DNA of 21,024 bases from a virus. The notes below the pieces were generated by a model, which was not told the origin of the DNA, ran no database searches, and was given only the letters and a program-made list of their open reading frames with translations. The translations under genes and the position numbers were made by a program. Of this stretch, positions 1,058-5,991 are shown piece by piece (the first letter of the stretch is position 1; every line of letters begins with the position of its first letter). Location: IMG/VR virus record IMGVR_UViG_3300006751_000178, positions 1 through 21,024 of that record; one strand, written 5' to 3'.

Positions 1058-1631
1058 CCACATCGTCTCCAGCTTGCTGCCCCTAGCGGTGGCTGTTGAT
1101 AGCCTGGCCGAAGACCCGAAGAACGCCCGCAGACATGACCAGCGCAACCTCGAGGCGATCAAGATGAGCCTTGAGCGGTTCGGGCAGCAGAAGCCCATTG
1201 TGGTCCAGGATGGGGTGGTGGTAGCTGGCAACGGCACGCTTGCTGCCGCCAGAGCTCTAGGCTGGGAAACCATAGCCGTCACCGATACTGACCTAGAGGG
1301 GGCAGCGGTTAAGGCGTATGCGCTCGCTGACAATCGCACGGCAGAGCTTGCCTCTTGGGATGATATCCAACTGGCGGAGACGCTGGACGGGTTGAGACTG
1401 GAGGATGCCGATCTCGCTGTGGCGGCGGGCTGGTCACTTGACGAGGCTGATCGCTTGGTGCCCAACGACTTGGCCGATGTGGACGTGGACATCCCGGAGG
1501 TGCAGGAGGAGATCCACAGCGAGAGAGGTGAGGTCTACGAGCTTGGCCCGCACCGGCTAATGTGCGGGGACTCGAGAGCGCGGAGGACGTCGCCGCGCTG
1601 CTGGGAGGGGCGACGCCTAACCTCATGGTGA
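1035..1631 (+). CDS. ParB-like domain, N-terminal half of a frameshifted ParB-DNA methyltransferase
   Basis: The ATG at 1035 is preferred over a TTG at 1002; the gene overlaps the TerS end by 23 bases. Residues about 15-110 form a ParB/sulfiredoxin-type domain: P-K-N-A-R at 28-32, the strongly conserved G-N-G-T-L-A-A-A-R at 65-73 (equivalent to ParB's G-x-x-R-xx-A region) and A-D-N-R at 98-101. It then reads E-V-Y-E-L-G-P-H-R-L-M-C-G-D-S, the hallmark linker that leads into a DPPY methylase in fused phage proteins. After that point (about 1575) the frame turns to unrelated Arg-rich residues and stops at 1631, while the continuing methylase lies in the -1 frame. This suggests one ancestral protein of about 405 residues. 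The intact family modifies DNA bases; the ParB part may bind or process DNA. Confidence 0.75.
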   Translation: MATRTTNSHIVSSLLPLAVAVDSLAEDPKNARRHDQRNLEAIKMSLERFGQQKPIVVQDGVVVAGNGTLAAARALGWETIAVTDTDLEGAAVKAYALADNRTAELASWDDIQLAETLDGLRLEDADLAVAAGWSLDEADRLVPNDLADVDVDIPEVQEEIHSERGEVYELGPHRLMCGDSRARRTSPRCWEGRRLTSW

Positions 1632-2251: not shown

Positions 2252-2484
2252 CCACCCCCGCTCACTGCCCCATCTGCCTCGCTGCCTTCGGGGTCTGCTC
2301 CCGATGCTCGAGGCCAATCCATCATGGCAGATCGCTCCCCCACAGCGGGTCCGGCCCCACCGGATTCTGCTGTGACTCAGAGGGGGAGGTGCGCTGTCTC
2401 TGCGGTCACCAGGTGGTCACCGGGGGCGTGTTCGTTGATTCCACGTTCATGGGCTGGGTGCGCGATCCGGTCCAGGTCCGGTGA
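2248..2484 (+). CDS. small Cys-rich, putative zinc-binding protein
   Basis: The ATG at 2248 overlaps the methyltransferase stop (ATGA), and the TGA at 2482-2484 overlaps the GTG start of TerL (GTGA), so this 78-residue protein is probably coupled to both. The frame is open upstream, but that part reads the methylase gene out of frame. It contains eight Cys: C-P-I-C at 7-10, C-S-R-C at 17-20, C-C at 41-42, and C-L-C at 50-52 followed by G-H. This suggests one or two zinc knuckles. No family is recognised. Together with the Cys protein at 249-503 it brackets the TerS/methyltransferase pair. A structural zinc site is inferred; a function in packaging is only suggested by position. Confidence 0.65.
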   Translation: MTTPAHCPICLAAFGVCSRCSRPIHHGRSLPHSGSGPTGFCCDSEGEVRCLCGHQVVTGGVFVDSTFMGWVRDPVQVR

Positions 2485-3782
2485 CCAAGCGAGTCTACCT
2501 TCCCAAGCCCCTGCCTCACCAGATGCCCGTTCTGGGATCCACGGCACGCATCAAGGTGGTCTGCTGCGGCAGGAGGTGGGGCAAGACCAAGGCCGGGCTT
2601 CTCGCCTGCGTGGAAGGTCACGGACCTCCAGGATGCCACCGTGGAGCAATCGAAGGGGGTACCGTCTGGTGGGTGGCGCCCAGCTACCCCATAGCCTCCA
2701 TGATCTGGCGCGATCTCAAGCACTGCCTCAAAGAGGCCTGGAGCGCAAAGAACGAGGTTGAACGCCGGATAGAGCTCGATAGCGGGGGAAGCATCAGCGT
2801 TCGATCCGCCGACAACCCCGACAGTCTGCGTGGCGTAGGTCTCGATGGTCTCGTGATCGATGAGGCAGCATTCTGCCGGCAGGAAACCTGGACCGAAGCT
2901 CTGCGCCCGGCCCTCGCAGATCGGCAGGGCTGGGCCGTCTTCATCTCGACGCCATGTGGACAGAACTGGTTCCATGACCTGTGGGAGCGAGCACCAGCCA
3001 CCGACGGCATGGAATCCTGGCAGCGCCCCACCAGCGACAACCCGCTGATTCCCAAATCAGAACTTGACGCTGCAAGGCTCGAGCTTGGGCCGTACACGTT
3101 CTCCCAGGAGTTTGAGGCGCAATTCGTTGCCCCGGAAGGCGCCCTCTTCAAGCGAGAAGACATCGAGATCATTGAGGGACGTGTAACGCGCATAGCCTCC
3201 AGGGTGCGGGGGTGGGATCTAGCCGCCAGCCTCACGGGCAAGCGCACCGCTGGGGTGCTCCTCGCCAAGACCCCCGAGCTACACACGTACGTGGTTGAAG
3301 ATGTGGTGAAGGGGCAGTGGCTCCCAGGCGACCGGGACAAGATCATCCGACAAACCGCTGAAGCGGATGGCCTGGGAATCCCCATCAGAATCGAACAGGA
3401 ACCGGGTTCAGGTGGCGTGGCACAGATCCATGCTATAGTGTCGTCACTGGCTGGATTCGATGCCAAAGGCGTACGCGTCACGGGTGACAAAATAACTCGA
3501 GCCGATCCGGTGGCGGCGCAAGCCGGCATCGGTAGACTCCAGGTTGTCCGGGGTGATTGGGTTGGCGACTTCCTCTCAGAGCTTGAGACGTTCCCTAGCG
3601 GTCAGTACCTCGACCAGGTGGATGCGCTCTCGATCGCCTTCGATCACCTCAAGAGTAGGGCGCCGGGAGCCGCTATCTCAGGATGGCGACCCAGGCCCGC
3701 AGCGGATGACTGGCGCAACGAGATCGAGATCACGGATGCAGCATTTACCCCTGGTAATTGGCGCGACGAGTTCCCGGAGTAA
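2481..3782 (+). CDS. terL: terminase large subunit (packaging ATPase and nuclease)
   Basis: TerL powers DNA translocation into the prohead and cuts the concatemer. The 433-residue product starts at GTG 2481. The ATPase domain shows Walker A C-C-G-R-R-W-G-K-T (28-36), Walker B L-V-I-D-E-A-A (124-130; D127, catalytic E128) and coupling motif I-S-T-P (155-158). The C-terminal RNase H-like nuclease domain shows R-G-W-D-L-A (243-248; D246), an acidic I-E-Q-E-P at 304-308, and D-Q-V-D-A-L-S (378-384), which fit the three metal-binding acidic positions. The length is normal for the family and no motif is missing. It ends just upstream of the portal gene, the usual order. A few residues at the C-terminus beyond 395 are probably a portal-docking tail (inference). 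Confidence 0.93.
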   Translation: MTKRVYLPKPLPHQMPVLGSTARIKVVCCGRRWGKTKAGLLACVEGHGPPGCHRGAIEGGTVWWVAPSYPIASMIWRDLKHCLKEAWSAKNEVERRIELDSGGSISVRSADNPDSLRGVGLDGLVIDEAAFCRQETWTEALRPALADRQGWAVFISTPCGQNWFHDLWERAPATDGMESWQRPTSDNPLIPKSELDAARLELGPYTFSQEFEAQFVAPEGALFKREDIEIIEGRVTRIASRVRGWDLAASLTGKRTAGVLLAKTPELHTYVVEDVVKGQWLPGDRDKIIRQTAEADGLGIPIRIEQEPGSGGVAQIHAIVSSLAGFDAKGVRVTGDKITRADPVAAQAGIGRLQVVRGDWVGDFLSELETFPSGQYLDQVDALSIAFDHLKSRAPGAAISGWRPRPAADDWRNEIEITDAAFTPGNWRDEFPE

Positions 3783-3787
3783 CCAAC

Positions 3788-5143
3788 ATGGCCATGCCTA
3801 GCCTCCCGATCGTTGAAGGTCGGAACTTCAATGCTGACCTCTATAATCACGCGCTATCCAACGCATATCGTGTCTGGACCAGACTGTACGATCCTGCGTA
3901 TGGATTAGCGCGTGATCCAGCGATCTACAGCAAGGTGCGGCGGGACGCGACTATTGCCCAGGCCATCGACACTCGCTGTCACATGGTCGCCTCGAGGGAC
4001 TGGCATATCGAGGCCGGCGATGATTCGGAGGAGTCCCGCAAGGCGGCAGGAATCTGTGAGAAGCTCGTGAGGTCCATCAAGGACTTCTCTGAAGCCAGGC
4101 TCATCCTTGCCCAGAACGTGTTCCATGGCCGCGCCTATGCTTTCATCGAGGGTGACCGGCAGACGCGCACGTTCGGAGACGAGAAGCCACGCCGCTGGTG
4201 GATGCCCATGCGTCTCCGCGACGTGGACCCGCGCCGCATCCGATTCGTCCCCCACACTGAGCAGGACGAAGACGGCAAGCAGCGTCTCTGGGTCACCCAG
4301 GAGATGTGGAGCGTGGTGCGCCAGGACTACGAAGAAATCACCCCCGCGCACCAGAAGCAATTCATCAGCATCATTCGGCTGAACCAGGAAGCCAACCTTG
4401 GCTACGGCTTCCCCCTCATGGATTCAATCTACTTCCTCTGGTGGATGAAATCCATTTGCTGGCGCGAGGGCTTACAGGGCCTGGAACGCTGGAGTCAGGG
4501 CGTGGTGGTCGGCAAGGTGGATTCCTTGCGCGAGGGTGGAGTGGGTCGCACCAACGACGACATCCGAACAGAGCTCTTCGACAGCCTCCAGTCCATGCGC
4601 TCCCGCCACGTCCTGGTAGTGGACAAAGAGACCGATATCGAGGTCAAAGAAGGTGGCGGCGCCGGCCACTCCATGGTGATGGACTTCATCAAGTACATGG
4701 ATGACAAACTTCTGGCTCTGATCCTGGGCAGCGTGCTTCCATTCGGCGGCGGAGACGGTGGAGGATCCTACGCCAGGGCTCGCGTGGAATCTGACACCAG
4801 TTCGGGCGTGATCCAGTACGACCGGGACAAGCTCGATGATGCGTTGACCGATGATCTGATCCAGTTGGTGTGGGAGCAGAACTATGCCAACTTCGCCGCG
4901 TTGGGGCTTCAAGGCGCGACCATTCCGAAGTTCGTGACCGACCTCTCCATCAAGAGCGATCCCGCCCAGGCAGCGGGGATCATCACGCAACTGGCCCAGG
5001 CTGGTCTCCCCATGAAGCTCGAGGAGGTATATTCCAAGGTTGGTATGACGATGCCCTCCGAAGAGGATGAGATATTCGAGGCGCAACCGCAGGGACCAGG
5101 GCAGATGCCCGAGGGCTTGCCCTTCACGGCTAAGACACTCTAA
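3788..5143 (+). CDS. portal protein, DUF935/Mu gp29-like
   Basis: The portal is the dodecameric ring at the head vertex through which TerL pumps DNA. The ATG at 3788 lies six bases after the TerL stop, with GGAG at 3776-3779 as ribosome site; a TTG at 3758 in frame is within TerL and not favoured, and an ATG at 3794 is an alternative. The 451-residue product has the DUF935 signature: an N-terminal region with D-A-R/D-T-R-C-H-M-V followed by S-R-D-W-H-I, the R-L-R-D-V-D-P-R-R-I-R-F segment, the W-W-M-K-S-I-C-W-R-E-G segment, and the Gly-rich loop L-P-F-G-G-G-D-G-G-G-S-Y-A preceding V-E-S-D-T, where the Mu family has similar text. The MuF-type gene downstream fits a Mu-like head module. Confidence 0.85.
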   Translation: MAMPSLPIVEGRNFNADLYNHALSNAYRVWTRLYDPAYGLARDPAIYSKVRRDATIAQAIDTRCHMVASRDWHIEAGDDSEESRKAAGICEKLVRSIKDFSEARLILAQNVFHGRAYAFIEGDRQTRTFGDEKPRRWWMPMRLRDVDPRRIRFVPHTEQDEDGKQRLWVTQEMWSVVRQDYEEITPAHQKQFISIIRLNQEANLGYGFPLMDSIYFLWWMKSICWREGLQGLERWSQGVVVGKVDSLREGGVGRTNDDIRTELFDSLQSMRSRHVLVVDKETDIEVKEGGGAGHSMVMDFIKYMDDKLLALILGSVLPFGGGDGGGSYARARVESDTSSGVIQYDRDKLDDALTDDLIQLVWEQNYANFAALGLQGATIPKFVTDLSIKSDPAQAAGIITQLAQAGLPMKLEEVYSKVGMTMPSEEDEIFEAQPQGPGQMPEGLPFTAKTL

Positions 5144-5154
5144 GGAACCACCCC

Positions 5155-5991
5155 ATGACCACCCCACGCATCATCTACGCGAAGCACCTGGTCGCCAGCC
5201 CGGCGCACTATCCCCAGCTTGCCAAGGGTGAACCCTGCAAGAAGGGTGAGACTGCGGCTAAGAGTGGATGCACGCCCGCGAGTGGGAAGGGAGGGGGTGT
5301 TGGGAGTGACTGGCGCGTTACGGGCGAAGATCCCCACTGGACGGGGGGACCGGCCTACAAAGAGCCCCCCGACGACCCAAAGATGAACAGCGCATGGGAG
5401 AAAGCTGTCTCCAGCCCGGAGGACTTCTCGCGGGAGGAGTTGCTGAATCTCCTATCCTGGAATGAGAGGTGGCAAGAGGACTACTCCGACGAATCTATGA
5501 TCGAGGAGTTCGGCAAGCCATTGACTCACGCGGATGCCGCCGAGATGATCCGGGAGCTTGAAGCGGAGGGTGGGGGGGGAGCCAAGGAACCCCAGCCCGC
5601 GCCAGCGGGGGGTGGGGGGGAGTGGACAAAAGATCGCGTTAGGGCAGAAGAGGCGCGATCAGAGTCCCCGCAGGCAGCACAGAAAGCCTCCGATTCGGCG
5701 GAAGGTAAATGGTTGCCTAAAATCAGGACTCTTGACCATCTAATCAAAGCGGGATGGACCATTGAGAATGAGGCGGCGTCTCTTGAGAGGGAAAACGCTG
5801 AGAAGATAAAAGCCGGAAGATTTGACCAGATAGATTTTGATGAAATTGTCAGGGTTAACTCGGAAACGCTATTCATTCGTAATTGGATGAAGGAACACAA
5901 AGAGAAAACCGGAGGGTTGGGAGACTATGAACCTGATCAGATTCCTCTGAATCCTCTAGTGAGCTCTCCATCGCGCATCATGGGATCCTAG
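5155..5991 (+). CDS. unrecognised protein between portal and MuF, two parts joined by a poly-Gly linker
   Basis: The 278-residue product starts at ATG 5155, 11 bases after the portal stop, with AAGGAACC upstream. No family is recognised with confidence. Residues 24-42 carry a paired-Cys motif, G-E-P-C-K-K-G-E-T-A-A-K-S-G-C-T-P-A-S, that looks like a short conserved module. Residues 75-138 are acidic and helical. Residues 139-155 are a Gly/Pro linker encoded by G tracts, and residues 185-255 form a second helical domain (K-W-L-P-K-I...) whose DNA (about 5700-5930) is visibly richer in A and T than its surroundings. The change in composition suggests the C-terminal part was acquired separately. 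Because it lies between portal and MuF it may be an internal or injected head protein, but this is inference. Confidence 0.7.
   Translation: MTTPRIIYAKHLVASPAHYPQLAKGEPCKKGETAAKSGCTPASGKGGGVGSDWRVTGEDPHWTGGPAYKEPPDDPKMNSAWEKAVSSPEDFSREELLNLLSWNERWQEDYSDESMIEEFGKPLTHADAAEMIRELEAEGGGGAKEPQPAPAGGGGEWTKDRVRAEEARSESPQAAQKASDSAEGKWLPKIRTLDHLIKAGWTIENEAASLERENAEKIKAGRFDQIDFDEIVRVNSETLFIRNWMKEHKEKTGGLGDYEPDQIPLNPLVSSPSRIMGS
5572..5620 (+). repeat. three poly-G tracts (8, 6 and 7 G)
   Basis: G runs occur at 5572-5579 (8), 5607-5612 (6) and 5614-5620 (7), encoding the two Gly blocks of the linker in the preceding gene. A one-base change in any tract would shift the frame and remove the C-terminal 120-odd residues. 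Such tracts are known contingency (phase-variation) sites in bacteria, and also common sites of sequencing or assembly error. Confidence 0.8.

Follow-up and report, generated by a model that had tools for sequence, protein, structure and literature searches.

Does the ParB-DNA methyltransferase gene of this phage encode one protein, two proteins or a broken product? The window, by which we mean the whole 21,024-base linear IMG/VR virus record analysed here, contained tightly packed ORFs on its + strand, in the order RusA-like resolvase fragment, small terminase, ParB/methylase region, 78-aa ORF, large terminase and portal-like gene; from their order and size, the ORFs beyond the portal-like gene look like head and tail genes. 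The features bearing on the question were as follows.

500-1057, + strand: terminase small subunit, the upstream neighbour (phrog_4102, E 2.5e-26 over window:500-1054).
1035-1631, + strand: ParB-like half of the gene, comprising the ParB domain, the linker, methylase strands 1-2 and then about 18 out-of-frame residues.
1532-2251, + strand: methyltransferase frame, N6/N4 type (PF01555), -1 relative to the ParB frame.
1550-2103, + strand: segment 94% identical to the methylase domain of L051, from a three-segment identity fit.
1575-1589, + strand: interval holding the net one-base frame change, from identity to L051 and a spacing of 59 versus 60 nt.
1625-1631, + strand: ATGGTGA, in which the ParB-frame stop overlaps an ATG and a GTG of the methylase frame, a by-product of the LMVTDPPYG codons.
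2481-3782, + strand: terminase large subunit, the downstream neighbour, intact by profile matches and comparison with L113.

We conclude that this is very probably an ordinary phage ParB-DNA methyltransferase fusion gene whose frame was recently broken within the methylase domain through a net difference of one base, be it a true change or a consensus error. The ParB-like frame started at ATG 1035 (or TTG 1002) and stopped at TGA 1629-1631, and the methylase frame was open from 1532, just after a TGA at 1529-1531, to TGA 2249-2251, so that the two frames overlapped from 1532 to 1628. The methylase frame ran for 239 codons without a stop and all motifs were kept. The ParB-frame translation P0001 (1035-1574) matched positions 38-208 of the PHROG 498 profile (E 8e-40; 8.1e-40 unrounded), and the methylase-frame translation P0002 (1532-2248) matched positions 210-432 (E 2e-67), showing that no part of the family is missing. 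On these profile scores, the match in two frames is judged not to be due to chance. The first-pass annotation had read the ParB frame up to HRLMCGDS, followed the methylase onward in the -1 frame, found no residues of the fusion lost between them and considered the methylase motifs intact; each of these readings was borne out. The ParB-like N-terminal half belonged to PHROG 498 by its own match; Pfam ParB_N alone gave 20.3 bits, below the cut-off of 26.3. The C-terminal half scored 68.1 bits against PF01555 (cut-off 26.7) and belonged to PHROG 498 as an N6/N4 methylase with the DPPY and GSGT motifs. PHROG 498 has both halves in a single reading frame, and in the window they were in two, making the gene a broken member of the family.

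The position of the change was narrowed by comparison with intact fused genes. When spacings of 10 to 35 residues between GDS and DPPYG were accepted in the search, exactly 20 residues were found in all 84 related ORFs (75 distinct contexts). By contrast, the GDS codons and DPPYG of the window were 59 nt apart, one short of the 60 nt that never varied in these ORFs. L051, which carries an intact fused gene, was base-identical to the window from 1561 through 1575, including the GGGG run at 1566-1569; the run is therefore not the site, the change lies 3' of it, and the earlier proposal that the shift falls beside this run did not hold. By this homology, the net one-base change is placed between 1575 and about 1589. 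The break itself was thus upheld, and the interval first assigned to it proved too wide. The patch at 1575-1604, beside the frame change, had 73% identity to L051, below that of the rest of the 94% segment. An exact search for the junction returned 0 matches, which is weak evidence since records near-identical to the window may have been hidden from the search.

The intact L051 protein was modelled with AF2 from a 28-row alignment (A1), giving a mean pLDDT of 83 and a pTM of 0.62. The model had a low-confidence linker at residues 141-155, followed in the methylase domain by strands 172-175 and 178-182 (HRLMC), a helix at 188-195, a strand at 202-205 and then DPPY. The break falls after residue 185 (L051 numbering), between strand 178-182 and helix 188-195, indicating that, as modelled, it is inside the methylase fold (second strand/first helix) and not at the ParB/methylase linker. 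Methylases with no ParB part (L026, L053 and L067) began upstream of HRLxCGDx and kept this motif in frame, which places the natural border between the domains left of the break. One of these records also held two consecutive methylase ORFs (L026:982-2615), each with a GSA/GDS-20-DPPYG segment.

Relatives were surveyed for the same split. GDx-20-DPPY lay in one frame in 79 of 80 methylase loci; 72 of the 79 had at least 150 open codons upstream, three were at contig edges and four had short upstream frames. The sole exception was L037, which breaks at a run of Gs. This independent break (L037:4989-5022) is at a stretch of about ten Gs just before DPPYG, either a homopolymer error or possibly a phase-variable tract. 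In L075, one of the four loci with short upstream frames, the break was inside the ParB part, at about 330-350, with no long homopolymer. A broader count took in 99 sequences, namely the window and 98 loci (one of them L001, the window's own copy), and comprised 80 long fused genes, 7 short ones, 3 at edges and 9 with no methylase match. No natural two-gene state cut at this place was found among the 80 methylase loci and the ParB-only loci, where records near-identical to the window may be hidden. The first-pass annotation had allowed for a natural two-protein state shared by relatives; the contiguity of 79 of the 80 loci and the position of the break within the methylase fold argue against it, and designed splitting of the gene is unlikely. 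Phage records matching P0001 numbered 585, and those matching P0002 numbered 637. Both doubly annotated cases opened among the matches listed were rejected as natural splits. In Bphi-R1888 (L121) a single CDS encodes the methylase, and the other feature is its upstream neighbour; in Javan269 (L122) there are two methyltransferase CDSs that share 4 nt within the methylase region, at another place than the break in the window. A832.1 (L123) and AmM-1 (L124) each have a single methylase CDS. A scan of genome contigs covered 68 stretches and gave 2 relatives. The closest phage, L113, was uninformative on the junction because it has no ParB-methylase gene.

Two proteins could be made if the ParB-like protein stopped at TGA 1629-1631 and ribosomes restarted at ATG 1625 or GTG 1628, giving a methylase that starts just before DPPYG. 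The overlap of the stop with in-frame starts in ATGGTGA, purifying selection on the methylase core and the existence of ParB-only relatives (L086-L091) all favor such a restart. However, a TGA in the same shifted register was present in 41 of 79 relatives because MVT is encoded there, so about half of the genes in the family would show this overlap if shifted here, and restart at ATGGTGA was rejected as family background. The restarted product would also be missing the HRLxCGDx strand as well as the 20-residue segment that all 84 ORFs retain, and no relative shows this state. Inspection by eye revealed no good ribosome-binding site before the in-frame starts GTG 1562, ATG 1625 and GTG 1628; ATG 1625 comes about 15 nt after the end of the G-rich stretch at 1603-1610, more than the usual spacing from a ribosome-binding site. 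Within 3.5 kb downstream of the six ParB-only loci, the + strand showed no ORF with a DPPY-type motif. We consider restart very improbable.

Programmed -1 ribosomal frameshifting, which would yield a mixture of full-length fusion and ParB-only protein, is in keeping with a methylase in the -1 frame and with frames that overlap from 1532 to 1628. However, a scan of 1532-1631 in register contained no slippery heptamer X_XXY_YYZ, confirming the first-pass annotation on this point. Only G_GGG at 1607-1610 could slip; it is downstream of the conserved helix and would leave about 11 wrong residues in the fusion. The RNA fold of 1576-1665 (-41.1 kcal/mol) had a z of only -1.79, and 11 of 200 shuffles were as good. 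With an empty heptamer scan, a weak fold and relatives that use one frame, recoding was rejected as an account of the split, and we regard frameshifting as the least probable of the readings. Frameshifting has been proposed for tail assembly genes in a paper on corynephage phi16.

The fused gene in the window was found to be a hybrid. Identity to L051 was best described by three segments (lnL -576.9, versus -768.5 for one rate), with 43% before 1550, 94% at 1550-2103 and 51% after; bounds within 2 lnL units were 1540-1552 on the left and 2100-2109 on the right. Over the 24 nt of HRLMCGDS, 23 matched L051, compared with a mean of 16.5 and a maximum of 20 in 29 controls. L051, L116, L117 and L118 were mutually identical over 1,260 nt. 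The ParB half was nearest to L082, L119, L083, L084/L085 and L011, not to L051. These identities indicate that the methylase domain is one exchanged between otherwise unrelated phages, in either direction. The edges of the 94% segment fell at HRLMCGDS and at the GSGTT motif, so that the exchanged piece is of domain size and lies within a fused gene. From the left edge of this segment, the frame change is some 25 to 40 nt inward; the exchange may therefore have helped cause the break. It is also conceivable that, after a recent methylase-domain swap with its left edge about 25-40 nt upstream of the change, the overlapping frames give a ParB-only protein and a separate or fused methylase, through restart at ATGGTGA or rare slippage, and we assign this a similarly small chance to restart itself.

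Selection on the methylase core was assessed over the 160 codons at 1604-2083, where the window and L051 differed by 16 synonymous and 3 nonsynonymous changes. Judged against the residues present in 14-15 outgroup sequences, the replacements at 1688 and 1916 were changes on the L051 side and the side of the one at 1610 was ambiguous, leaving at most one replacement on the side of the window; the polarity of the silent changes was mostly ambiguous. On the side of the window, this comparison thus gave no hint that selection had been relaxed, indicating that the break is recent, or a sequence error, or that the frame is still in use. The earlier suggestion of recent decay or a base-calling error fits such an undecayed core. 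For the preferred reading, a recently broken or mis-called fusion gene, the undecayed methylase frame is also a point against, since reinitiation or recoding would explain it equally well. A long-standing pseudogene would account for the broken frame and for the absence of the gene from L113, which together suggest that the gene is dispensable; with so few replacements, no stop in the methylase frame and every motif kept, it is very improbable.

Within the preferred reading of a recent one-base break, a consensus or assembly error would mean that the phage gene is intact and the contig wrong by one base. The undecayed methylase core, the intact state of all other genes compared (six gene pairs with L113 ran in single frames) and the breaks in L037 (at its G-run) and L075 (in its ParB part) speak for this sub-case; the latter two suggest that breaks occur at a few percent in contigs of the ParB-methylase family. 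However, the site is not a homopolymer and the nearby GGGG is unchanged relative to L051, so a sequencing slip is a less natural cause. We consider such an error a real but minority possibility, and put at roughly even the chances that the sampled phage truly carries a loss-of-function change.

The gene is probably an accessory one, with the small terminase gene before it and the large one after it. Translation as sequenced would give a product of about 198 residues, made up of the ParB domain and a short out-of-frame tail, and presumably no working methylase; the intact protein would act on phage DNA near packaging. In L113, the nearest phage (83% amino-acid identity in the large terminase and 81% in the portal), the small and large terminase genes were adjacent. 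A large terminase was recognised by PF03237 or PF03354 in 15 of 30 hand-picked records with the gene; in the remaining 15, neither profile matched. It started about 0.4 to 0.9 kb downstream of the methylase on the same strand in 12 of the 15 (L002, L007, L012, L018, L019, L020, L028, L034, L037, L051, L066 and L073) and lay 4 to 8 kb away in three. The first ~50 residues encoded by window ORF 5155-5991 matched three successive ORFs of L113 (L113:3531-6505 versus window 5134-5988), suggesting repeated copies of one small domain beside the portal gene.

What looked like a recoding candidate is thus mostly settled as a gene of an ordinary kind that is broken or mis-called. The by-products were a clear domain map with the break away from the border between domains, the exchange of a domain-sized methylase core between unrelated phages, and a recurrent terminase-adjacent place of the ParB-methylase gene.

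Both halves of the window's gene match PHROG 498, a phage DNA methyltransferase family with an N-terminal ParB-like domain, contiguously, and they differ from it in their two frames. No split or recoded ParB-methylase was named in the titles and abstracts of the literature searched. Fusions of a ParB-CTPase fold with an N6_N4 methyltransferase are commoner in phages than in bacteria according to one survey, whose accessible text describes no split form (PMC12704722). BCE_0392, a ParB-methyltransferase of a Bacillus cereus prophage region with reported nicking-associated concatenation (PMC3459991, PMC5512222), shares, by its description, the ParB-adenine methylase layout; the portions of those papers available report no break. 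It was suggested to act in phage replication or packaging (PMC3459991), and the terminase-adjacent place seen here fits such a role. A precedent within the same family is in Wolbachia prophages, where met1/met2 encode an adenine methyltransferase with a predicted N-terminal ParB-like domain and met2 of wAu carries a 2-bp deletion after codon 92, producing a frameshift that removes the methylase domain (PMC3089641). In the window, a metagenome contig, the frame change amounts to a net one base and falls within the methylase domain itself.
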